Source of the DNA: a virus
Reading direction: 5' to 3' (one strand)
IMG/VR virus record: IMGVR_UViG_3300030012_000629
Span: 1 to 29,762 of that record
DNA: 29,762 bases
Part shown: positions 6,164-29,718 of the stretch, piece after piece
How the letters are laid out: every line of letters begins with the position of its first letter
How positions within the stretch are numbered: position 1 is the stretch's first letter
Position numbers and translations under genes: made by a program
Notes under the pieces: generated by a model
Databases searched by the model: none
What the model saw: only the letters and a program-made list of their open reading frames with translations
Told to the model about the DNA's origin: nothing

Positions 6164-6615
6164 AAATAAGCGATCATATTACATATAAAGAAGCGATACA
6201 TTCTAACACAGCTAAAAGATTAGGAATAGAAAATAAACCTAATAATCAGCAAATGCAAAATATGCAGATTATAGCAGAAAAGGTGTTTGAGCCATTACGT
6301 AAGTGGGTAGGTGGACCAATAAAGGTCAGTAGTTTTTTTAGATCTCCAGAAACTAATAAAGCTATTGGTGGTGTCAGTTCTAGTCAGCATTGTAAAGGTC
6401 AGGCAATAGATATAGATGATGTTTATGGGCATAAAACAAATGCGGAGATGTTTGAGTTTGTAAAAGAAAATCTAGAGTTTGACCAAATGATATGGGAGTT
6501 CGGGGATGATAAAAATCCTAACTGGTTGCATATTAGTTATGTAGAGGGTAAAAACAGAAATAGATTACTAAGAGCAGAAAAAAAAAATGGTAGAACAGCA
6601 TATAGAATAATATGA
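6160..6615 (+). CDS. Endolysin, peptidase M15-type (zinc DD-/LD-peptidase)
   Basis: 151 residues. It carries the M15 signature: 'SSQHCKGQAIDID' (H77, D84 as zinc ligands) and 'NWLHISY' (H124 as third ligand), with E113 ('IWEFG') a plausible catalytic base region. 'VSSFFRSPETNKAIGG' matches the substrate-side loop common to VanX/DD-carboxypeptidase-like and M15_3 phage lysins. Reaction: hydrolysis of peptide bonds in peptidoglycan stem peptides or cross-links. It has no signal peptide, so it needs the holin for release. Overlapping its neighbours and standing two genes before a holin, it is clearly the lysis enzyme. Confidence 0.85.
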   Translation: MKISDHITYKEAIHSNTAKRLGIENKPNNQQMQNMQIIAEKVFEPLRKWVGGPIKVSSFFRSPETNKAIGGVSSSQHCKGQAIDIDDVYGHKTNAEMFEFVKENLEFDQMIWEFGDDKNPNWLHISYVEGKNRNRLLRAEKKNGRTAYRII

Positions 6616-9726: not shown

Positions 9727-10049
9727 AATTACAGGGATCAATAGTAGAAATAAACGAAACAGAAACAAGAGGTACTTTTAGTTTTAGAAATTTAGTTCTT
9801 AAAACCTTTGGTGATTATCCACAGTTTCTCACATTACAATTTAGAAAAGATAAATGCAATTTATTGGACAATTATCAGGCTAATGATAAAGTAGATGTGG
9901 AAATAAATTTAATTGGTAAAAAATGGGAAAACCCAAAGAGTAAAGAAATTAAATACTTTAATACGATAGTAGCTTGGAAGATTGGATCTTATGTAGAAGA
10001 AGTTACCGCAGAGGATCAATCTCCAGACAGAGATGACTTACCATTTTAA
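9723..10049 (+). CDS. DUF3127 single-stranded-DNA-binding-like protein
   Basis: 108 residues, a complete match to the DUF3127 pattern: 'LQGSIVEI' start, 'SFRNLVLKTFGDYPQFLTLQ', 'DKVDVEINLIGKKWE' and 'KYFNTIVAWKIG'. It forms an OB-like barrel common in Bacteroidota and their phages. The acidic C-terminus 'DRDDLPF' is the tip that SSBs and T7 gp2.5 use to recruit replication enzymes. Inferred role: coats ssDNA at the phage fork. An intrinsic terminator follows nine bases downstream, so it is the last gene of its unit, and the helicase starts the next. Confidence 0.8.
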   Translation: MKLQGSIVEINETETRGTFSFRNLVLKTFGDYPQFLTLQFRKDKCNLLDNYQANDKVDVEINLIGKKWENPKSKEIKYFNTIVAWKIGSYVEEVTAEDQSPDRDDLPF

Positions 10050-10057
10050 ATTTCAAT

Positions 10058-10084
10058 GAGGGGGTTTTTTTACCCCCTTTTTTT
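10058..10084 (+). terminator. Rho-independent terminator after the SSB-like gene
   Basis: A GGGGG arm (10060-10064) pairs with CCCCC (10073-10077), extended by T-A and A-T pairs, with a T-rich loop and a T7 tail. It separates the SSB-like unit from the helicase unit and could leak, giving stepped expression. Confidence 0.85.
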
Positions 10085-10111
10085 ATTTAAAATATTTTAA
10101 TTAACTTAAGA

Positions 10112-11026
10112 ATGCTAATAAACTTTAAAGAAGAACTAGATAAATTAAACAAAGTAAGAACAGGAAAATTAAAGGAGGGATTAAAACTAGGACACAAAAA
10201 ATTAGATGAACATATAAGATTTAAAAGATCTAATTTCAATGTAATACTAGGACACGCAAATGTAGGTAAAACTACTGTAATTCTTTATTTAATGTTATTA
10301 TACACACTGAAACATAATATACGTTGGTTGGTATATTCAAGCGAAAACGAAGCATATAGTATTATTAGAAAGCTTTGTGAATTTATAGCTTGTGAGCCAA
10401 TAAATAAAATGAGCAAAATGAAGCTTGACAAAGTAAGTGATTATGTAAATAATCATTTTAAATTAGTTCAGGCAGATAAATTATACAGTTATAAGGATTT
10501 GTTAAATTTAGCACAAAATATAAAAGAAGCCTGGGATTATCAAGGTTTATTAATTGATCCTTACAACAGCCTTATCAAAGATAAAAACTTGTTAAATGGC
10601 ATAAATGGACACGAATATGATTACCAAGCAACAAGTGAATTAAGAATTTTCTGTAAACAAAACAACATAACAATATGGCTAAATACACACGCAGCCACAG
10701 AAGCACTAAGAAAGAAACATCCCAAGGGTGATTATTATGAAGGACACCCAATACCACCAATGGCTTCAGATGTTGAGGGTGGGGGTAAGTTTGTAAACAG
10801 AGCAGATGATTTTTTTGTAATACACAGATACATACAGCATCCAACTGAATGGATGTACTCAATGATACACACTAGGAAAATAAAAGATACTGATACAGGA
10901 TCAAGACCTACACCAATAGATGCACCGATTAGGTTAAAGAGCATAATAAATAATGTAGGTTTTGAGATTGATAACGTCAATATAATTAAACAGAAACCTA
11001 GTGCAAAAAAAGAACTACCATTTTAA
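10112..11026 (+). CDS. DnaB-like RecA-fold replicative helicase
   Basis: 304 residues. Walker A 'GHANVGKTT' (47-55), Walker B 'GLLIDPYNS' (145-153), a sensor 'IWLNTHAA' (188-195) and 'VEGGGKFVNRADDFFVIHR' (221-239) follow the DnaB/RecA C-terminal core order. The DnaB N-terminal primase-binding domain is missing, which fits short phage helicases. Role: ATP-driven unwinding at the fork. It ends in 'KKELPF', like the SSB's 'DDLPF'. It begins a new unit after a terminator, and its 3' end overlaps the sigma-like gene by 26 bases. Confidence 0.8.
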   Translation: MLINFKEELDKLNKVRTGKLKEGLKLGHKKLDEHIRFKRSNFNVILGHANVGKTTVILYLMLLYTLKHNIRWLVYSSENEAYSIIRKLCEFIACEPINKMSKMKLDKVSDYVNNHFKLVQADKLYSYKDLLNLAQNIKEAWDYQGLLIDPYNSLIKDKNLLNGINGHEYDYQATSELRIFCKQNNITIWLNTHAATEALRKKHPKGDYYEGHPIPPMASDVEGGGKFVNRADDFFVIHRYIQHPTEWMYSMIHTRKIKDTDTGSRPTPIDAPIRLKSIINNVGFEIDNVNIIKQKPSAKKELPF

Positions 11027-15592: not shown

Positions 15593-16004
15593 AGAAATAA
15601 AAGACATAGTACAACTATTAAAAGATTTATCTGGGGTGGATATATTTGAAGAAAGCAGAAGCAGAAAACATACAGAGCCTAGATCTTTGTTTAATTTTAT
15701 ATTAAGGAATCATTATAATTTTACTTTATATGACATTAAAGATTTCTATAAAAGTATGGGTAAAAGTTATGATCACGCAACAGCTTTACATAGTTTAAAA
15801 AACTTTGAGGTATATAGAAAGTATAATAAAAAGTTAGATGAATGGTTTGATATTTTTAAGCAAAGATATACTGATGATGAATTAAAAAGATTAAAAAGAG
15901 AAACAATAAAACATAAGATAGATTACATTAGTGATGATTATGTAAATAGAATTTATAGGATAGTAAACCAGTTGCCTATTGAAAATTTAAATAAAAAAAA
16001 TTAA
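15582..16004 (+). CDS. DnaA domain IV-like DNA-binding protein
   Basis: 140 residues from ATG 15582 (MKNKEIKDIV). A longer reading from 15540 would begin with codons belonging to the remnant, so it is rejected. 'RSRKHTEPRSLFNFILRNHY', 'LYDIKDFYKSMGKSYDHATALHSLKNF' (shown by its ends) fits the DnaA C-terminal helix-turn-helix: basic start, 'xxRxxxxYxLR', then 'xxDHxTxLHxxxxx'. The AAA+ domain is absent. Inferred role: binding a phage origin or acting as a regulator. It stands next to a leader element and before the ParB-like gene. Confidence 0.6.
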   Translation: MKNKEIKDIVQLLKDLSGVDIFEESRSRKHTEPRSLFNFILRNHYNFTLYDIKDFYKSMGKSYDHATALHSLKNFEVYRKYNKKLDEWFDIFKQRYTDDELKRLKRETIKHKIDYISDDYVNRIYRIVNQLPIENLNKKN

Positions 16005-16025
16005 ATTAATTTATATATAAATATG
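16003..16025 (+). promoter_or_regulatory. Leader element TTTATATA-N5-ATGAAA before the ParB-like gene
   Basis: TTTATATA at 16010-16017 lies exactly five bases before ATG 16023, which is followed by AAA. The same octamer and spacing precede 19732, 26768 and 27564. The position is too close to the start for an ordinary sigma promoter with a leader, so either the transcript is leaderless or this is a translation element. It opens the block from ParB-like to terminase. Confidence 0.5.
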
Positions 16026-16604
16026 AAACCTATTAAAATAAATATAGATAAAATAAAAAACAACCCTGAAAATCCTAGGGTTATAAAAGATTATAAATTT
16101 AACAAACTTGTAAAAAGCATTAAGGATTTTCCAGAAATGATGCAGTTGCGACCAATTGTTGTGGATGAGAATAATATTATACTGGGTGGCAATATGCGTT
16201 ATAAGGCTGCAGTACAGGCAGGTTTAAAAAATGTTTATGTAATACAGGCAGATGATTTATCAGAAAAGCAAAAAAAAGAATTTGTTATTAAAGATAACAG
16301 TAGCTTTGGAGAATGGGACTGGGATGTATTGGCAAACGAATGGGAGTTAAATGAATTAAAGGAATGGGGATTAGATCTTCCTAGAATATATTTTGATGAG
16401 GACGAGGAGCCTGAACTTGACAAAGATATATTCGACCAGGAATTAGATACCTATATAAACGCAAAGGTTAAACAGATAACTTTATATTTTAATGCAGATG
16501 AGTATGAAAAAGCAGTTAAAGATTTAGAAACAATAAGGCAAAAGGAAAGCCTTACGGACAACACACAGGCATTTAAATTTTTAATTAATAAATATGGATT
16601 ATAA
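16023..16604 (+). CDS. ParB/Srx-fold protein of the base-modification cassette
   Basis: 193 residues. The ParB N-terminal fold is clear: 'NPENPRVIKDYKFNKLVKSI', 'LRPIVVDENNIILGGNMRYKA' (the GGNMR loop corresponds to the GE(R)R-type nucleotide/catalytic loop), and 'KEFVIKDNSSFGEWDWDVLANEW'. The C-terminal part ('KQITLYFNADEYEKAVKDLE') looks like a separate small domain. Known: ParB-fold proteins in phages include nucleases and CTP- or DNA-binding regulators. Next to a TET/JBP enzyme and its glycosyltransferase, it may nick DNA or guide modification; that is inference. It overlaps the glycosyltransferase by 11 bases. Confidence 0.75.
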   Translation: MKPIKINIDKIKNNPENPRVIKDYKFNKLVKSIKDFPEMMQLRPIVVDENNIILGGNMRYKAAVQAGLKNVYVIQADDLSEKQKKEFVIKDNSSFGEWDWDVLANEWELNELKEWGLDLPRIYFDEDEEPELDKDIFDQELDTYINAKVKQITLYFNADEYEKAVKDLETIRQKESLTDNTQAFKFLINKYGL

Positions 16605-18224: not shown

Positions 18225-18570
18225 AAAAGCATTATTAGATGCATTGGAAAAATCTCTGGGAGTTGTTACAACTGCTTGTAAGAAAGTAGGAATAGGAAGA
18301 ACTACTTATTATGATTGGTATAACACAGATCCAGAGTTTAAAAAACAAGTAGATGATTTACAGAATGTTGCTTTAGATTTTGCTGAATCACAATTACACA
18401 GACAAATAGCAGAGAACTCAACAAGTGCAACTATATTTTATTTGAAAACAAAAGGAAAGAAAAGAGGATATGTAGAAAGACAGGAGATAACAGGTGCTGA
18501 TGGAATGCCTAACAATTTTCAAGTAGAGATAATTGATAAGACAGAAGATACAGACAAACAAAGTTTATAA
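18202..18570 (+). CDS. terS: Terminase small subunit (HTH type)
   Basis: 122 residues from ATG 18202; a TTG six bases upstream is possible but weaker. 'SLGVVTTACKKVGIGRTTYYDWYNTDPEFKKQV' (described by its ends) is a helix-turn-helix of the phBC6A51-like class, followed by 'LDFAESQLHRQIAENSTSATIFYLKTKGKKRGY', a very common terminase small-subunit signature. Role: recognises the packaging site and loads the large subunit. It overlaps the TET-like gene by 23 bases and the large subunit by 38. Confidence 0.85.
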   Translation: MNKTEQHKKALLDALEKSLGVVTTACKKVGIGRTTYYDWYNTDPEFKKQVDDLQNVALDFAESQLHRQIAENSTSATIFYLKTKGKKRGYVERQEITGADGMPNNFQVEIIDKTEDTDKQSL

Positions 18571-19696
18571 ACACCTAGTAAACAGCAACAAAAAAATAGT
18601 TGTAGAACAGGGTGGAACAAGATCTGGTAAAACATATAATATATTGTTATGGATTATCTTGCAATATTGTGCTAGTAATCAGAACAAAACAATAACAATC
18701 TGCAGAAAAGCATTTCCTAGTTTAAGAGCATCCGTAATGCGTGACTTCTTAGACATACTTCGCAAACTTAATATATATCAAGAAGAGAATCATAATAAAT
18801 CTAATAGTGAATACAAGCTGTTTAATAATCTTGTAGAGTTTATTAGCCTGGATATGCCACAAAAGGTTAGGGGTAGGAAAAGAAATCTATTATTCATTAA
18901 TGAAGCCAACGAACTAAATTGGGAAGATTGGCAGCAACTTATATTTAGAACAGATGGAAAGATAATAATTGACTATAATCCAAGTGATGAATACCATTGG
19001 ATATACGACAAAGTAATACCTAGAGAAGATTGTGATTTCTTCAGAACAACTTATTTAGATAATCCCTTTTTAGAACAAAGCATTAAATCAGAGATAGAAA
19101 GATTAAAAGAAACAGATGAACAATACTGGCAGATATATGGATTAGGTTTAAAAGGTATAAGCAAAGCAACTATATTTAATTATTATGAATGCTCACAAAT
19201 ACCAGAAGATGCTAAGTTTATAGCCTATGGTGCAGATGCAGGATACTCTAATGATCCCTCTACACTTGTAAGTGTCTATAGTTTAGATTATAATCTTTAT
19301 ATTAAAGAACATTTATACAGAACACAAATGACCACTAAAGATCTACACAACACATTTAAAGAAGTAGGGGTTGCAAGAAATCAGTTGTATATGGATAGTA
19401 GTGAGCCTAGATTAATAGAAGAGTTAAGAAGAATGGGTTGGAATATAAGACCAAGCTTAAAGGGTAGGGATAGTATAAATGCAGGTATTGATCTATTAAA
19501 GAGATATAAACTATTTATAACAACAACAAGCAACAATGCAATTCAGGAGTTTAGAAATTATAAATGGAAAGAGGACAAGAGTGGAAAGCTAACAAATATT
19601 CCAGAAGATAAGAACAATCACATAATAGACGCTGTAAGATATGCGACTTATAGTATATTAAGCAGACCTAACTTTGGAAGATATACAATTAATTAG
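18533..19696 (+). CDS. terL: Terminase large subunit
   Basis: 387 residues. TTG 18533 is the best start, since no ATG or GTG occurs in frame before Walker A. ATPase: 'GGTRSGKT' (27-34), 'LLFINEANEL' (119-128, catalytic E124). Nuclease (RNase H fold): 'YGADAGYSNDPST' (D235), 'LYMDSSEPRLIEEL' (D288), 'NHIIDAVRYATYSIL' (D366). This is the PBSX/Terminase_3-like type. It pumps DNA into the prohead and cuts concatemers. It ends the block that began at the ParB-like gene; unusually, no portal gene follows. Confidence 0.93.
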   Translation: MIRQKIQTNKVYKHLVNSNKKIVVEQGGTRSGKTYNILLWIILQYCASNQNKTITICRKAFPSLRASVMRDFLDILRKLNIYQEENHNKSNSEYKLFNNLVEFISLDMPQKVRGRKRNLLFINEANELNWEDWQQLIFRTDGKIIIDYNPSDEYHWIYDKVIPREDCDFFRTTYLDNPFLEQSIKSEIERLKETDEQYWQIYGLGLKGISKATIFNYYECSQIPEDAKFIAYGADAGYSNDPSTLVSVYSLDYNLYIKEHLYRTQMTTKDLHNTFKEVGVARNQLYMDSSEPRLIEELRRMGWNIRPSLKGRDSINAGIDLLKRYKLFITTTSNNAIQEFRNYKWKEDKSGKLTNIPEDKNNHIIDAVRYATYSILSRPNFGRYTIN

Positions 19697-19711
19697 TAAC
19701 AAAAATAATTT

Positions 19712-19734
19712 AAAAAAGTTTATATATTAATATG
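19712..19734 (+). promoter_or_regulatory. Leader element TTTATATA-N5-ATGAAA before the tail gene block
   Basis: TTTATATA at 19719-19726, five bases before ATG 19732, preceded by an A-rich stretch. Same layout as the elements at 16010, 26755 and 27551. It occupies the only gap (35 bases) between terminase and the tail genes. Confidence 0.5.
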
Positions 19735-20376
19735 AAAACTAGCATAACAGTACCGACAAGATTAAATGACATAACCTTAGGGCAATATAAGAAGTTTATG
19801 CAACTGGGTGAATTAGATGATACAAAGCTACAAATTGAAACAATAAAGATATTCTGCAACATACCTTATACAAGTGTAATGCGAATGAGGGCTAGTGATA
19901 TATCTAACATAACTGCTCAGATATTTGAGATACTAGAAACAAAGCAGACACTAATAAATAAATTTAAATTAGATGGGATTGAATATGGGTTTATACCTAA
20001 TCTTGATGATATGACTTTTGGTGAGTATGTAGATCTGGATACTTACATAGGGAAGTGGGATGATATTGAAAAGGCTATGGCTGTATTATATAGACCCATT
20101 ACATTAAAGAAAGGTGATAAATATATCATAGAAGATTATCAGCCTGGTAACTTTGAGATATATAATTATATGCCTTTAGACGTAGTGTTTAGTTCGATTG
20201 TTTTTTTTTACAATTTAGGGATAGACTTATGCAAAGTTATGACCAACTATATTCAGAAAGTGGACAAGGACAACTCGATGGAGCAACAAATTTTACTCGC
20301 AAATATGGATGGTATAACTCCATTTATGCACTCGCTAAAGGAGACATTACAAGATTTGAAAATATCACTAAATTAA
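19732..20376 (+). CDS. Probable tail assembly chaperone (short form)
   Basis: 214 residues. 'LNDITLGQYKKFMQLGE', 'NLDDMTFGEYVDLDTYIGKWDDIEKAM', 'VLYRPITLKKGDKYIIEDY' and 'MPLDVVFSSIVFFYNLG' form a helical protein I recall in flavobacterial phages, usually paired with a short second frame. Two facts support tail assembly chaperone (lambda G/GT-like): a T9 run at codons 157-160 and an overlapping -1 frame that continues for 84 codons. It lies upstream of tail completion and tape-measure genes. The family assignment is by architecture, not by a known domain. Confidence 0.55.
   Translation: MKTSITVPTRLNDITLGQYKKFMQLGELDDTKLQIETIKIFCNIPYTSVMRMRASDISNITAQIFEILETKQTLINKFKLDGIEYGFIPNLDDMTFGEYVDLDTYIGKWDDIEKAMAVLYRPITLKKGDKYIIEDYQPGNFEIYNYMPLDVVFSSIVFFYNLGIDLCKVMTNYIQKVDKDNSMEQQILLANMDGITPFMHSLKETLQDLKISLN
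20200..20210 (+). promoter_or_regulatory. T9 slippery tract, candidate -1 programmed frameshift
   Basis: Nine T in a row (20201-20209), read GTT TTT TTT TAC in the zero frame. Slipping back one base gives TTA CAA TTT AGG GAT..., open through ATG 20229 to the TGA at 20460-20462. The fusion would be about 243 residues. No downstream pseudoknot was identified by eye. Confidence 0.5.
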
Positions 20377-20462
20377 ATATACACAAATGTTTATACTATC
20401 TCACATTTGAAAAAGAGAAACAAGAGATAGAGCAAAGATTAATAAAAAAAAGTTTTAAATGA
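20229..20462 (+). CDS. Tail assembly chaperone second frame / overlapping small protein
   Basis: 77 residues if started at ATG 20229 (MQSYDQLYSES...), or the C-terminal part of a frameshift fusion. 'FTRKYGWYNSIYALAKGDITRFENITKLNIHKCLYYLTFEKEK' (given by its ends) is the conserved-looking core; 'KxGWYxSIYxLAxGDxxxFxxITxxxxxxCLxYLxFEKxK' is a pattern I recall as a phage tail protein. The first 148 bases also encode the end of the upstream protein in another frame, so this DNA is doubly coding. Stop overlaps the next ATG. Confidence 0.6.
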   Translation: MQSYDQLYSESGQGQLDGATNFTRKYGWYNSIYALAKGDITRFENITKLNIHKCLYYLTFEKEKQEIEQRLIKKSFK

Positions 20463-20584
20463 TTGATACAATTAAGCACCTATTAGGATTATGTGGTGAG
20501 CCTCACCTAAATATATATTCTATAATCCTATTAATTATATTATTTAGAATAGCAGTATATAATAACAAAACATATAAAAGATGA
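20459..20584 (+). CDS. Small membrane protein with CGEPH motif
   Basis: 41 residues: 'MIDTIKHLLGLCGEPHLN', then a hydrophobic helix (IYSIILLIILFRIAVY, ~20-35) and a basic tail. It overlaps both neighbours by four bases (ATGA). The 'GxCGExHxN' start with one membrane helix is, from memory, a recurrent mini-protein in the tail region of flavobacterial phages. Function unknown. Confidence 0.6.
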   Translation: MIDTIKHLLGLCGEPHLNIYSIILLIILFRIAVYNNKTYKR

Positions 20585-21051
20585 GCCATAAAGGTATAAG
20601 AGGTTTTTATTTAGTATTAACTAAAATAGAAGAGCAGTTATTATCGGATGTTAATTGTAACACAGTAACCACAGGAGATATTACAGATGTAGATCTAAAC
20701 AAGCAAACTATATTTCCGTTAGCACATATTATTATAAATACTGTATCACAGGAAGATCAAGTGTTAAGATTTAATGTAACAATACTTACAATGGATATTG
20801 TTGATGAAAGTAAAGCAGAGGGTGCAGATAAGTTTGTAGGCAACAATAATGAACACGATATATTAAACACACAGCTAGGTGTAGTAAATAAATTGATAGG
20901 TGTATTAAGGGGTGGAACATTACATACTGATTTATATCAATTAGATGGCATAGCAACTTGTGAGCCCTTTTATGAAAGGTTTGAAAATAGGTTAGCAGGA
21001 TGGGCAAGTAGCTTTGATATATTAATACACAATGATATTACGATATGTTAA
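20581..21051 (+). CDS. Putative tail terminator/completion protein
   Basis: 156 residues of alternating strands and helices: 'GFYLVLTKIEEQLLSDVN', 'FPLAHIIINTVSQEDQVLRFNVTILTMDIVD', 'NNNEHDILNTQLGVVNKLIGVL', 'EPFYERFENRLAGWASSFDI' (segments quoted in short form). The early helix, central strands with 'VTILTMDIVD' and late 'GW...FDI' resemble the small alpha/beta tail terminator proteins that cap the tail tube. Position beside an HK97 gp10-like gene supports this. It overlaps the next gene by seven bases. No sequence family was recognised with certainty. Confidence 0.5.
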   Translation: MSHKGIRGFYLVLTKIEEQLLSDVNCNTVTTGDITDVDLNKQTIFPLAHIIINTVSQEDQVLRFNVTILTMDIVDESKAEGADKFVGNNNEHDILNTQLGVVNKLIGVLRGGTLHTDLYQLDGIATCEPFYERFENRLAGWASSFDILIHNDITIC

Positions 21052-21599
21052 AAGATCCTAAAGAATTAAAAAAGATTCTAAATGGTTATGCTAAGTTTTT
21101 AGTTAATCAAAGCAAGGCAAACTTGAAAGAGGATGGGAGAATAGTGTCTGGTGCACTTTATAACAGTATTAAGAAAGAAGTAAAAACAGGGGTAGGTAGT
21201 TTTGATCTGAGCATATTCGCAAAGGACTATGCTAAGTTTATAGATCAAGGGGTGCAAGGAACTGGGAGTGGCAACAAAGCACCCAACAGCCCATATAGAT
21301 TTGGATCAGGCACAGGAAGAAAAGGTGGACTAACAGAGGGTATAGAGAAATGGATAAAGCGAAGAGGTATAAAAGGCAGAGATAAAAACACAGGTAGGTT
21401 TATCACACAAAAATCATTACAACATTTAATAGTCAGAAGTATTTGGTTTAGAGGTATTGCGCCCAGTATGTTTTTAACAAAGGCTTTAAACCAAGTTATG
21501 AAGTATTTACCAGATGATATACTAAAAGCGTATGCAATAGATCTAGAAGGACAGATATATGATGATATTAAAAACCAAGAAATAAATTTAAATGGCTAA
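21045..21599 (+). CDS. HK97 gp10-like head-tail/tail completion protein
   Basis: 184 residues. 'SGALYNSIKKEVKTG', 'LSIFAKDYAKFIDQGVQGTG' and 'APSMFLTKALNQVMKYLPDDI' reproduce the HK97 gp10 pattern (S-x-L-xxSI, 'YAxFxxxGT'-like segment, then a C-terminal helix after 'xPxxFL'). A 'RGIKGRDKNTGRFITQKSLQ' insert is present. Known role: completes the neck and joins tail to capsid. Overlaps both neighbours. Confidence 0.7.
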   Translation: MLKDPKELKKILNGYAKFLVNQSKANLKEDGRIVSGALYNSIKKEVKTGVGSFDLSIFAKDYAKFIDQGVQGTGSGNKAPNSPYRFGSGTGRKGGLTEGIEKWIKRRGIKGRDKNTGRFITQKSLQHLIVRSIWFRGIAPSMFLTKALNQVMKYLPDDILKAYAIDLEGQIYDDIKNQEINLNG

Positions 21600-24815: not shown

Positions 24816-24955
24816 TAAAAACAATATTAGAGGGTTTGAAGTTTGCAACAAACGAAACGGAAGAAATAAGAATAGCAAAGGGAAAATATAAAATAGCTAC
24901 AAATATAAAGGAAGCACTTAAACAAATTAAAGATGGCAGAAGAAAGAGTAATTAG
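24812..24955 (+). CDS. Small basic protein upstream of the tape measure
   Basis: 47 residues (MIKTILEGLKFATNETEEIR...) with 'IAKGKYKIATNIKEALKQIKDG'. It overlaps the upstream stop by four bases and the tape-measure start by 23 bases. The pattern 'AKGKYKIATNIxEALKxIK' seems conserved at this position in similar phages (from memory). It may be a tape-measure chaperone or coupling leader; unproven. Confidence 0.55.
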   Translation: MIKTILEGLKFATNETEEIRIAKGKYKIATNIKEALKQIKDGRRKSN

Positions 24956-26732
24956 AATTAGAGGGGATCTGAAACAAGCAGAGCAATCCTTTAAAGAACT
25001 TACAGACACTATATTAGAGCAAAAGAGAATAACTATTGAGTTAGAGGAAGAGCTGCTGAGATTAAAAAGGATTCAAGAAGATATTCCTAAAACACAGTTA
25101 GCTGCAAGACAAAAGGTACAAGCATCTATTGATAGGGTTAGTGATTCGCTAAGAGAACAAAGAATAGCATTAAAAGATTTAAATCTACAAAAGCAAGAAG
25201 CTAAAGCAGATATTAGTTTTCAGAAAAGACAAGGCTTTATTTCTAAAGAATTAATCAAGAGTAGGCAAAATACTGCTGCTCTTAATATGGTAACAGGTGG
25301 ATATTTTGGACAATTAAGAAAAGGTGTAAAACTTTTAAGGCTTACTAGATTAGGATTTATAAGTGCTGCTAGGGGTGTAAGTGTTTTTAGCAAAGCATTG
25401 ATAGCAACTGGTATAGGCGCAATAGTAGTAGCTGTTGGGTTATTAATAGCAAACTTTGATAAAATTAAAAAATTAGTTTCTGGTGTAAGTAGCGAAACAA
25501 CTAATCTTTTAAAGAAACAAACTGATGCTGTTGCAGAAGAAGAAAAAAGATTTAAAGCTATTGAGGGATCTGAAAACATATTAAAGCAACAAGGCAAGAC
25601 AGAGAAAGAAATATTAGGCTTAAAGATAGCTCAAACTAAAGCGGTTATATCACAGTTAGAAGCACAATTAGAAACACAAGAACAAATAAAAAAATCGCAG
25701 GTAGAAACTGCTCAAAGAAATAAAGATATACTACAAGGGATATTATCCTTATTGTCAGCACCATTAACAGCAGTGTTAGTAGTTATAGATGAAATAGGTA
25801 AATTTTTAGGTAAGGATTTTGGATTAAGAGAGGGCTTGTTTGGTGGTATAGCTGGATTAGTATTTGATCCTGAAAAGGTAGAGGAAGAAGCAGACAAATC
25901 TATTGAAACTACACAGAACAAATTAAACACCTTAAAAAATACTTTAGCAGGATTTGAAAATAGTGTAACACAGATAGAAGATAATGAACAAGCTAAAAGA
26001 GATGCAAACGAAATAAAAAGGGAAAAACAAAAGGCATCTGAAATTGAAGCTATTAGACAAGCACTTATTGACACAGATGAAGAAAGACAAGCAGAAGAAA
26101 TTAGAAAGAATGAGGAACATTTTGCTAAACTAAGACAACAAATTATTCGGCATTATGGGATTATGTCACCTTTACTTGCAGAGTTAGATGAAGCAGAAAA
26201 AAAGAAACTAGAGGAAATAAATAAAAAATATAAAAATACAGAAGTAGAGATAGAAGAAGAAACACAGGAAGCTAAGAAAAGTGCTTTAAGTATATTTGCA
26301 GATGCATCCCAAGCAATGAGCAACTTGTTAGGAAAACAAACTGCTGTTGGTAAAGCTTTTGCAATAGCTAGTGCTTTAATGAATACTTATGAAGCAGCAA
26401 ACAAAACATTAAAAGATGAAACAATACCTAATACTTTTGCAAGAATAGCTGCTATGTTTACGGTTATATCTACAGGTATTGGTAATGTTAAAAATATAAT
26501 GGCTGTTAAAGTACCTGGACAAGGTGGTGGTGGTGCATTGCCATCTAGCATAGCACAAGGTACTGCTGCACCTGCATTTAATATAGTAGGTGCTTCACCA
26601 GAAAATCAATTAGCACAAAGCCTAGCAGAGCAAGAACAACAACCAGTACAAGCTTTTGTTGTAAGTCAGGATGTAACCTCTGCACAAAGTTTAGAGAATA
26701 ACATCATAGAGGGAGCAAGTATTGGAGATTAA
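24933..26732 (+). CDS. Tail tape measure protein
   Basis: 599 residues. Long coiled coils at ~1-110 and ~330-455 (Glu/Lys/Gln rich), hydrophobic segments at ~130-172 ('GFISAARGVSVFSKALIATG', 'GAIVVAVGLLIANFDKIKKL') and ~270-310 ('ILSLLSAPLTAVLVVIDEIG'), then 'GKQTAVGKAFAIASALMNTYEAANKTL' (ends quoted) and a Gly-rich C-terminus. This is the usual tape-measure layout. At 0.15 nm per residue, 599 residues suggest a tail of roughly 90 nm, so a siphovirus-like particle is likely. Its stop lies inside the next leader element block. Confidence 0.75.
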   Translation: MAEERVIRIRGDLKQAEQSFKELTDTILEQKRITIELEEELLRLKRIQEDIPKTQLAARQKVQASIDRVSDSLREQRIALKDLNLQKQEAKADISFQKRQGFISKELIKSRQNTAALNMVTGGYFGQLRKGVKLLRLTRLGFISAARGVSVFSKALIATGIGAIVVAVGLLIANFDKIKKLVSGVSSETTNLLKKQTDAVAEEEKRFKAIEGSENILKQQGKTEKEILGLKIAQTKAVISQLEAQLETQEQIKKSQVETAQRNKDILQGILSLLSAPLTAVLVVIDEIGKFLGKDFGLREGLFGGIAGLVFDPEKVEEEADKSIETTQNKLNTLKNTLAGFENSVTQIEDNEQAKRDANEIKREKQKASEIEAIRQALIDTDEERQAEEIRKNEEHFAKLRQQIIRHYGIMSPLLAELDEAEKKKLEEINKKYKNTEVEIEEETQEAKKSALSIFADASQAMSNLLGKQTAVGKAFAIASALMNTYEAANKTLKDETIPNTFARIAAMFTVISTGIGNVKNIMAVKVPGQGGGGALPSSIAQGTAAPAFNIVGASPENQLAQSLAEQEQQPVQAFVVSQDVTSAQSLENNIIEGASIGD

Positions 26733-26767
26733 AATGCAAAAAAAATAAATTTAATTTATATATAATT
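26733..26767 (+). promoter_or_regulatory. Leader element TTTATATA-N5-ATGAAA before the prohead protease
   Basis: TTTATATA at 26755-26762, five bases before ATG 26768. The surrounding 44 bases (26731-26774) match the leader at 27527-27570 at 35 positions by hand count, including AAAATGCAAA at the left and TTAATTTATA in the middle. It separates tail genes from head genes. Confidence 0.55.
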
Positions 26768-27373
26768 ATGAAAGTTATAGAATTAGTAATAGATGAAATG
26801 GATGAACTGGGTGGTATTGAAGCAATATCAGTTGTAGAGAATCCTGCGATAGAAGAAGATTTTATTGCTCTTAAATCACAAGAGGTTAAATTAGCAGAGG
26901 TAGATAATGAGAAAAGAATATTATTAGGTGCTTTGCTAATACCTAACAAACCGATTTATAGAACTAATGGTGCAGAAGAATATTACATATATTTTTCTAA
27001 AGATACGGTGCAGAAAGCATCACAATTATATCTAATGAAAGGCAATCAAAATAAAACAACATTAGAACATCAGCATAGTTTGAATGGTTTGACACTTGTA
27101 GAAAGTTGGATAGTCGAGGATGAAACCCACGACAAATCTAGAAAGTATGATATGAAAGTGCCGATGGGTACTTGGATGGGTGCTGTAAAAGTAAATAACG
27201 ATAAGATCTGGCAAGAGTTTGTAAAAACAGGTAAGGTAAAAGGTTTCTCGATAGAGGGTTACTTTGCAGATAAAATGGAAAGACCAAAGGATAAACCTAA
27301 AAGTGAATTAAGCAAAGAAGATAATGCACAGGGTTTAATAGATCAAATAAAAAATATATTAAGTGCATACTAA
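26768..27373 (+). CDS. XkdF-like prohead serine protease
   Basis: 201 residues. 'GGIEAISVVENPAIEEDFIALK' start, 'LLGALLIPNKPIYR', 'TTLEHQHSLNGLTLVESWI' (H101/H103, catalytic His), 'VPMGTWMGAVKV' and 'GKVKGFSIEGYF' (S161, nucleophile) match the XkdF/S78_2-type phage protease. Role: cleaves scaffold and capsid protein during maturation. It is followed by a scaffold-like protein and the major capsid protein, as expected for a head module. Its 3' end overlaps a Cys-rich mini-gene by 11 bases. Confidence 0.82.
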   Translation: MKVIELVIDEMDELGGIEAISVVENPAIEEDFIALKSQEVKLAEVDNEKRILLGALLIPNKPIYRTNGAEEYYIYFSKDTVQKASQLYLMKGNQNKTTLEHQHSLNGLTLVESWIVEDETHDKSRKYDMKVPMGTWMGAVKVNNDKIWQEFVKTGKVKGFSIEGYFADKMERPKDKPKSELSKEDNAQGLIDQIKNILSAY

Positions 27374-27526: not shown

Positions 27527-27563
27527 AAAATGCAAAATAGTAATTTTTAATTTATATAATAAT
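27527..27563 (+). promoter_or_regulatory. Leader element TTTATATA-N5-ATGAAA before the scaffold-like gene
   Basis: TTTATATA at 27551-27558, five bases before ATG 27564; this copy is nearly the same as that at 26733-26767. Two such elements within 800 bases suggest that protease and scaffold/capsid genes are expressed as separate units. Confidence 0.55.
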
Positions 27564-28124
27564 ATGAAAGCAACAGAAATGTTAAATAAAATCAAGGATG
27601 TAATTAATCCATCCGAAGAGGTTAGATTAGAACAATTAAAGCTAGAGAATGGAACAGTATTAGAAGCTGAGAAGTTTGCATCTGGCAATGAGGTATTTAT
27701 TCTTACAGAAGATACTAAGGTAGCACTACCTGTAGGAGAGTATGAAATGGAATCAGGAGATATGCTGAAGATAGAAGAAGAGGGAATTATTGCTGATCTG
27801 GGTTACGAGAAAAAGGAATATGAAGATAAAAAGGAAGATGAAGAAGAAGAGAAAGAGGATATGAATGAAGAAAAGTACCCTACAAAAGAAGAGTTTGAAG
27901 CTCTAAAAGAAATGGTAATGAAAATGAGAGAATCAATGGGCAAGAAAGAAGAAATGACTAATGAATTACCAGAAGAAGTAGTAGAAGAATTATCACAGCC
28001 TGCGGCAGAGCCTATCAAGCATTCTCCAGAGGTAGTAAGTGAAAAGAAAAAAGTATTGTATTCACAAAATAGAAGTCAGACAACTATGGATAGAGTGCTT
28101 GCAATGATTAATAAAAATAAATAA
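27564..28124 (+). CDS. Capsid scaffold-like protein
   Basis: 186 residues, extremely acidic in the middle ('YEDKKEDEEEEKEDMNEE', ~90-107), with an N-terminal strand-rich part ('LKLENGTVLEAEKFASGNEVFI' then 'VALPVGEYEMESGDML') and a helical 'KEEFEALKEMVMKMRESMGKK'. The C-terminus ('QNRSQTTMDRVLAMINK') is a short helix as in scaffolds that bind capsid protein. It lies between protease and capsid genes, the standard scaffold position. No family was recognised with certainty; the N-terminal part may stay in the virion. Confidence 0.65.
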   Translation: MKATEMLNKIKDVINPSEEVRLEQLKLENGTVLEAEKFASGNEVFILTEDTKVALPVGEYEMESGDMLKIEEEGIIADLGYEKKEYEDKKEDEEEEKEDMNEEKYPTKEEFEALKEMVMKMRESMGKKEEMTNELPEEVVEELSQPAAEPIKHSPEVVSEKKKVLYSQNRSQTTMDRVLAMINKNK

Positions 28125-29160: not shown

Positions 29161-29718
29161 ATGGCGTGTTTACTAACAACTGGTAGAGGACTACCTTGCA
29201 AATCTGGAGTAGGTGGATTAAAACATATTTACTTTGTTGATTATGGTGGGTTAGGAACTGCTACTGATGATGGCTCTAATGAACCAGATGCATCAGCTTT
29301 TGATGGAACAATTAACAACATAACAGGAACACCAACTGCATATAAGTTTGATATAAAAGGAAATTCTAGTTTAGAAACAACTGTAAATTCTAGTAGAGAA
29401 AATGGAACTACGTTTTACGAAAGTGTTTTAAATCTAACATTACCTTTCTTAGATGCAGCTACTAATCAGGAATTAAAGCTTTTAGCTTATTCTAGACCAC
29501 AGGTAATTGTAGAAGATTACAATGGTAATAGATTTGTTGTTGGTTTGGAAAATGGAGCAGATGTTAATGGGGGTACAATCGTAAGTGGTGCAGCTATGGG
29601 TGACCTTTCAGGATTCACTTTAAGCTTTCAGGCGATGGAAAAATTTCCACCACCATTTATGAATGCAACAGCTTTTGCACAAGTCACAGTATCAGGATCT
29701 CAAATAGCACCGAACTAA
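29161..29718 (+). CDS. Major tail tube protein
   Basis: 185 residues. 'ACLLTTGRGLPCKSGVGGLKHIYF', 'AYKFDIKGNSSLETTVNSSRENGTTFYESVLNLTLPFLDAATNQELKLLAYSRP' and 'VEDYNGNRFVVGLENGADVNGGTIVSGAAMGDLSGFTLSFQAMEKFPP' (segments by their ends) follow a tail-tube pattern: two beta sheets with a long loop and a 'GAxxGDLxGxxLxFxxxE' closing strand. Role: polymerises into the tube through which DNA passes. It lies next to the capsid gene and far from tape measure and chaperone genes, which is unusual. Confidence 0.75.
   Translation: MACLLTTGRGLPCKSGVGGLKHIYFVDYGGLGTATDDGSNEPDASAFDGTINNITGTPTAYKFDIKGNSSLETTVNSSRENGTTFYESVLNLTLPFLDAATNQELKLLAYSRPQVIVEDYNGNRFVVGLENGADVNGGTIVSGAAMGDLSGFTLSFQAMEKFPPPFMNATAFAQVTVSGSQIAPN

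Follow-up and report, generated by a model that had tools for sequence, protein, structure and literature searches.

Short and long tail assembly chaperones of tailed phages are textbook products of ribosomal frameshifting, and the gene encoding such a pair is usually, though not by strict definition, situated between the genes for the major tail protein and the tape measure protein. Chaperones of the lambda G/GT type bind the tape measure and the tube protein, do not occur in virions, and have to be present at a critical ratio. In the case of dnaX, two products are formed via the ribosome in E. coli and via the polymerase in Thermus. Polymerase slippage is set by the length of the run that pairs with the template and not by the reading phase. 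Runs of nine A or nine T are typical of bacterial transcriptional slippage (PMC1088944; PMC5009743), 80% of transcription insertions concern a single nucleotide, and insertions in homopolymers climb steeply with run length (PMC5574713).

The locus studied here belongs to a marine phage and resides on a virus record of 29,762 bases, which is referred to as the window; all coordinates are those of this record. With regard to its layout, the locus resembles the gpG/gpGT system of phage lambda, which has counterparts in HK97, P2 and other tailed phages, in that one gene of the late structural region would provide a short and a -1-extended form sharing an N-terminal domain, while a small C-terminal domain is reached by the shift alone. 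For the window, this arrangement is predicted from the sequence.

Two reading frames meeting at a run of nine T

The features of the locus and of its surroundings are compiled in Table 1. An earlier note on the same DNA had placed nine T at codons 157-160 of ORF1 and had described an open -1 frame extending to 20462, yielding a fusion of about 243 residues as an alternative to the 214-residue short form. Both statements are borne out by the window sequence. Codons 157-160 read GTT TTT TTT TAC, the heptamer T_TTT_TTT lies in frame at 20202-20208, and the -1 frame, preceded by a TAG at 20190-20192, runs without interruption from 20193 until a stop codon whose last base is 20462; the ATG at 20229 lies within it. 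For a slip at the heptamer, the predicted product comprises 159 + 84 = 243 amino acids. Residues 1-159 of ORF1 are common to the short and the long form and residues 160-214 constitute the 0-frame tail. The distance from the ATG at 20229 to the ORF1 stop amounts to 148 nt, while the full stretch read in two frames past the tract covers about 167 nt.

Table 1. Features of the recoded locus and its neighborhood in the window
Feature	Position	Strand	Evidence or remark
ORF1, 0-frame short form, 214 aa	19732..20376	+	conserved in 53 diverse relatives
T9 slip tract, one T either side of the in-frame heptamer	20201..20209	+	run of at least 9 T in 321/321 relatives
-1 frame extension, C-terminal domain of the predicted 243-aa form, 84 aa LQFRDRLM...KKSFK + stop	20208..20462	+	GW motif in -1 frame
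Dual-read stretch, 55 codons of the 0-frame tail	20210..20376	+	suppressed third-position change; openness of 0 frame unexpected from -1 frame alone
TAG closing the +1 (third) frame, two codons past the tract	20216..20218	+	window sequence
ATG in -1 frame	20229..20231	+	restricted to the close clade of the window; ATC, GTC or the like in other relatives
Terminase large subunit (Terminase_3), directly upstream neighbor	18533..19696	+	family match
Small gene	20581-21051	+	downstream neighbor
Small gene, weak match to tail completion/Neck1	21045-21599	+	downstream neighbor
Tape-measure-like protein, presumed client	24933..26732	+	PHROG tail length tape measure

Conservation of the tract and of both frames

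About 460 loci were retrieved from sequence collections, and removal of duplicates left 321 distinct loci. One query consisted of residues 1-133 of a distant member and thus ended upstream of the tract, another contained only sequence downstream of it; hits obtained with such queries are free of selection for the tract. At the junction, the uninterrupted T run comprises nine residues in 252 of the distinct loci, ten in 68 and twelve in one, and it is shorter in none. The GW motif of the second domain is located in the -1 frame at the 316 of 321 loci where it is readable; it was encountered at no locus in the 0 or +1 frame. The same run, at the same place and in the same -1 relation, recurs in all 321 distinct relatives, so that the tract is more than a chance occurrence. 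The +1 frame is closed within three codons of the tract in 317 of the 321 relatives; this is the frame that would result from other indels, but its closure may simply follow from the dual-coded LG/FR motif. Taken together, conservation strongly supports a programmed entry into the -1 frame at the T run, and recoding at this position is very likely.

Relatives lacking the homopolymer but keeping both frames and a conserved separate start, which the earlier note had considered, were not encountered, each of the 321 carrying at least nine T. An error in the T count, also considered there, was rejected: the tract agrees among hundreds of contigs of independent origin and with the genomes of the isolated Nonlabens phages P12024L and P12024S, and both frames are conserved. 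These two phages are the only isolates that were found by sequence. Six contigs from bacterial metagenome-assembled genomes (MAGs) contain the gene, five of them labelled Bacteroidota and one Epsilonproteobacteria. For the relative in the MAG with the latter label (L247, JAHZJZ010000222.1), either the phage DNA was binned wrongly or the host is not a member of the Bacteroidota.

Two separate genes would offer a different account of the locus, with ORF2 translated from the ATG at 20229 or from a nearby codon, overlapping ORF1, and the tract merely encoding Phe-Phe. This ATG does occur in the window and its close clade, and public annotation as well as the PHROGs split the Nonlabens ORFs (phrog_32199 and phrog_38404). 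Between the tract and the GW motif, however, an ATG is present in only 16 of 316 relatives and missing from the other 300, and even when ATG, GTG and TTG are all counted, 77 relatives have such a codon and 239 have none. Most relatives carry ATC or GTC at the position of ATG 20229. Independent initiation is therefore not the general route, and the alternative start at ATG 20229, as originally suggested, is confined to one clade. Furthermore, the -1 frame is conserved as far as the border of the tract (FFLxFR). All 53 representatives (90% identity) have TTT as codons 158 and 159, although 19% of the Phe codons upstream in the same genes are TTC (310 TTT vs. 75 TTC; P ~1e-10, ignoring shared ancestry). 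We consider two separate genes very improbable.

A further alternative is phase variation at the DNA level, in which replication slippage at T9 would toggle ORF1 and ORF2 between a fused and an unfused state. Homopolymers of nine nucleotides are hypermutable in principle, and one locus (L090) combines a change from T9 to T10 with an upstream deletion of one nucleotide. On the other hand, frames fused in the DNA were found at none of the 321 loci, in line with the frame of the GW motif, and T10 forms come with substitutions that preserve the frames. This explanation is likewise very improbable. In L090, compared with L091, the extra T of the tract is accompanied by one base fewer about 25 nt upstream, such that only the short segment between the two sites changes its frame and the frames on either side of it are preserved; this is either a natural compensated pair of indels or an assembly error.

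The stretch downstream of the tract bears the marks of constraint in two frames. Between pairs of relatives, third positions of the -1 frame changed at 0.104 per site from the tract to the ORF1 stop, compared with 0.217 downstream, where the -1 frame alone is read, and 0.283 upstream in ORF1. When the codons of the -1 frame were reshuffled synonymously, only 0.5% of the trials preserved a 0 frame of natural length, and the mean open length was 8 codons vs. 55 observed. As both frames of the overlap are constrained, it is truly dual-coding. Judged by these patterns, purifying selection acts on both frames and the alternative tail of the short form is real in most members. Dual-frame coding had been proposed before and stands in this respect, but it would arise from the slip and not from initiation at ATG 20229.

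Polymerase or ribosome slippage

Counting the Ts that adjoin the in-frame heptamer on its left and right, respectively, we found the states (1,1), (1,2), (2,1) and (0,2) at 242, 53, 14 and 9 of the 321 loci. The states (0,3), (2,0) and (1,4) occur at one locus each, and the sum of both flanks never falls below two. In the (0,2) clade, codon 157 specifies Ser, Asn, Thr, Gly or Ala, and codon 160 is TTG or TTA, giving two Ts; T at the second base of codon 157, where an aliphatic residue is usual, is therefore not demanded by the protein. Conversely, L247 has a codon 160 without T (CTG) and TTT as codon 157 instead. Amino acid constraint was rejected as the full cause of T9, given that codon 157 can encode S, N, T, G or A and codon 160 L, C or F, and that the flanks never fail together.

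When left and right flanks were permuted against each other among 82 clusters at 70% identity, 4.6 runs shorter than nine were expected and none was observed (P = 1e-4), while for 20 clusters at 50% identity 1.7 such runs were expected (P = 0.017). A tree of 137 sequences, constructed from the part of the protein that precedes the tract, implies 16 or more switches of register, and every sampled sequence has nine T or more. The run is kept at a length of at least nine T irrespective of codon phase, and three phases are occupied; the clearest compensations between the flanks stem from few independent events, namely the (0,2) clade, L217 and L247. An alignment of relatives had been suggested as a check for conservation of the homopolymer amid varying flanking codons. 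It proved positive, in a manner that points to a run length of at least nine and not to a ribosomal heptamer.

In other genes of these phages, only two of 27 in-frame T_TTT_TTT runs reach nine T, the remaining 25 comprising seven or eight; a third listed run (L176) is not counted as it represents the recoded gene again. Compared with codon shuffles, long runs are depleted in 484 other genes of these phage contigs, with ratios of 0.19 for A10 and 0.44 for T8, and runs of at least eleven A are absent where 9.3 were expected. The window itself harbors A runs within other ORFs at 6578 (A10), 12178 (A9) and 16872 (A9). Such runs are consequently tolerated, and low-level slippage may occur there.

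These observations have to be weighed against a classical programmed -1 ribosomal frameshift at U_UUU_UUU, as in lambda G/GT, that works without help from the polymerase. T_TTT_TTT is in frame in all 321 relatives, frameshifting is the known route for tail assembly chaperones (PMC5009743), and in some registers the long U run provides additional positions for re-pairing. Seven T would suffice for the ribosome, yet runs of seven or eight are never seen and the flanks compensate across phases. In addition, the core is never replaced by the variants U_UUU_UUA/C/G, and U_UUU_UUU is far less shift-prone than A_AAA_AAG in E. coli (PMC5009743). The usual stimulators also appear to be missing, although some such sites lack these: among structures free of pseudoknots, stable RNA was found neither upstream nor downstream of the tract (downstream mean z ~0) and RNAalifold returned 0 pairs, with no covarying pair, and an SD-like element is located upstream in only 15 of 137 sequences. 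Frameshifting by the ribosome alone hence appears rather unlikely. An intrinsic terminator, i.e., a hairpin followed by a U run, was likewise dismissed, since 19650-20700 lacks any terminator-like site and the RNA upstream of the tract showed no structure.

The Ts outside the heptamer have no evident ribosomal use but would be of use to the polymerase since slippage tracks run length and not phase. Moreover, one extra U leads exactly to the -1 frame used at the tract. As conservation extends beyond the ribosomal heptamer to a run of at least nine, transcriptional slippage is now the better mechanism, and, given recoding, the slip would probably be transcriptional rather than ribosomal. Of the programmed -1 frameshift of the earlier note, recoding at the T tract is thereby retained, while its mechanism is revised in favor of the polymerase. 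The in-frame T_TTT_TTT kept by every relative is nevertheless a ribosomal slip site itself, and both mechanisms may act.

According to the proposed scheme, RNA polymerase would slip back on the template at the nine T and add one U to a fraction of the transcripts. Ordinary translation of these transcripts would enter the -1 frame and give the long form of 243 aa, while transcripts with nine U would give the short form of 214 aa, so that one gene would provide two proteins with residues 1-159 in common. The 55-aa tail of the short form would share its DNA with the start of the extension of the long form. The shared domain would hold the tape measure and the -1 domain would recruit the tail tube protein. 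The two-frame architecture, the run of at least nine T whatever its phase, selection on both frames and, for the most part, the lack of a separate start emerge from the comparison of relatives itself. As a whole, polymerase slippage at T9 yielding a short and a long chaperone-like form is the best explanation, to which we assign a somewhat better than even chance. For a widespread lineage of Bacteroidota phages that would produce two chaperone forms via phase-independent polymerase slippage at nine or more T, combined with a conserved dual-coding tail of about 55 codons, the chances appear evenly balanced.

Protein identity and comparison with known systems

The gene directly follows that for the large terminase subunit. 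The earlier note had spoken of the chaperone upstream of the tape measure, a detail that is off here: the gene for the probable tape measure begins 4.5 kb beyond ORF1, with other structural genes in between. In all 270 relatives in which this could be tested, a homolog of one of the two small downstream genes follows the tract. A repeated AT-rich motif (about AATTTATATATAAnnATATGAAA) is located directly upstream of four gene starts including that of ORF1 (15986-16044, 19697-19741, 26731-26789, 27527-27585) and is possibly a late promoter or a translation-start signal. The protein encoded at 29161-29718 has two homologs in P12024L (L162, 2149-2637 and 5968-6450), which follow the capsid gene and the portal gene, respectively; it represents a duplicated and possibly tube-like protein.

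ORF1 and the -1 domain were modelled separately, with AlphaFold2 used for ORF1. The ORF1 model exhibits an ordered N-domain, a long helix running through the slip site and a poorly ordered 0-frame tail (pLDDT 79, pTM 0.71), and the model of the -1 domain is all helical. Family searches against Pfam, NCBIfam and PDB sequences were empty or at chance level, and structure searches gave a best E of 0.92 with Foldseek against the PDB and a best Z of 4.8 with VIA-align. In the BFVD, ORF1 matched unnamed phage proteins, a protein of Flavobacterium phage 6H and, weakly, one 'Tail assembly chaperone protein' (E 0.085, prob 0.90), while the -1 domain gave unnamed or weak matches only. PHROG families for the gene are of unknown function. 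The match in Flavobacterium phage 6H (E 3e-4) looks like a distant counterpart, with only T6 and with downstream frames broken in a different manner. On the minus strand of this genome (L387), positions 10047-10927 encode a protein of 191 aa that is probably identical with the BFVD match R9VW65. Behind it, a helical stretch resembling a chaperone is divided between two other frames, for which two shifts are apparently needed unless sequencing errors are involved.

Assignment as a tail assembly chaperone, put forward in the earlier note, remains plausible by the short/long layout and the neighborhood, but searches of Pfam, NCBIfam and the PDB gave no match to back it, and the tape measure gene is not a direct neighbor. 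With the same recoding, the protein could instead serve another step of head or tail assembly, as the gene comes after that for the terminase instead of that for the major tail protein, and no sequence or fold match to a characterized chaperone was obtained. Against this speaks that the gene opens the block from tail completion to tape measure in the window and in the Nonlabens phages, that the combination of a shared N-domain and a small, helical -1 domain corresponds to the arrangement of G/GT, and that the sole named relevant BFVD match is the chaperone entry mentioned above. A role in another assembly step is unlikely in our view. Given the G/GT layout and the location within the tail block, a chaperone is the best guess, and by analogy the proteins probably act like lambda gpG/gpGT, the shared domain binding the tape measure and the -1 domain bringing in the tube protein. 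Since the gene lies outside the interval between major tail protein and tape measure, it is likened to the chaperone class and not filed as a member.

Lambda gpG/gpGT are formed by ribosomal frameshifting, whereas at the locus described here a run of at least nine T is conserved independent of phase. In further contrast to lambda, the 0-frame form has its own conserved tail of about 55 aa encoded by the overlap and the gene is placed after that for the terminase; homology at the sequence level was not detected. If the proposed mechanism is true, the locus forms a natural parallel to dnaX, with a chaperone pair arising by polymerase slippage; a literature search found no phage tail chaperone expressed by slippage. 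Heptamer-based frameshift finders and two-gene annotation would then mishandle such loci, whose halves the PHROGs assign to two families without relation to each other. With the 321 aligned loci, a natural set of run registers is at hand, covering three codon phases and 9-12 T, for separating slippage by the polymerase from that by the ribosome.

Among the isolates, the closest likeness is with gp40/gp41 and their counterparts in Nonlabens phages P12024L and P12024S (Inhavirus), which share a homologous ORF1 (27% identity), T9 at the same place, a homologous -1 tail and the same following genes. The 0-frame tail past the tract comprises only 25 aa in P12024L, and gp40 and gp41 are annotated as two unrelated hypothetical proteins. 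As in the A9 run of Thermus dnaX, in Shigella mxiE/spa13 and in IS elements with nine A, a run of about nine A or T is located at the junction of two ORFs, and one inserted base leads into the second ORF, giving two products from one gene. Those examples are chromosomal, plasmid or IS genes, whereas the locus described here is a putative phage tail gene.
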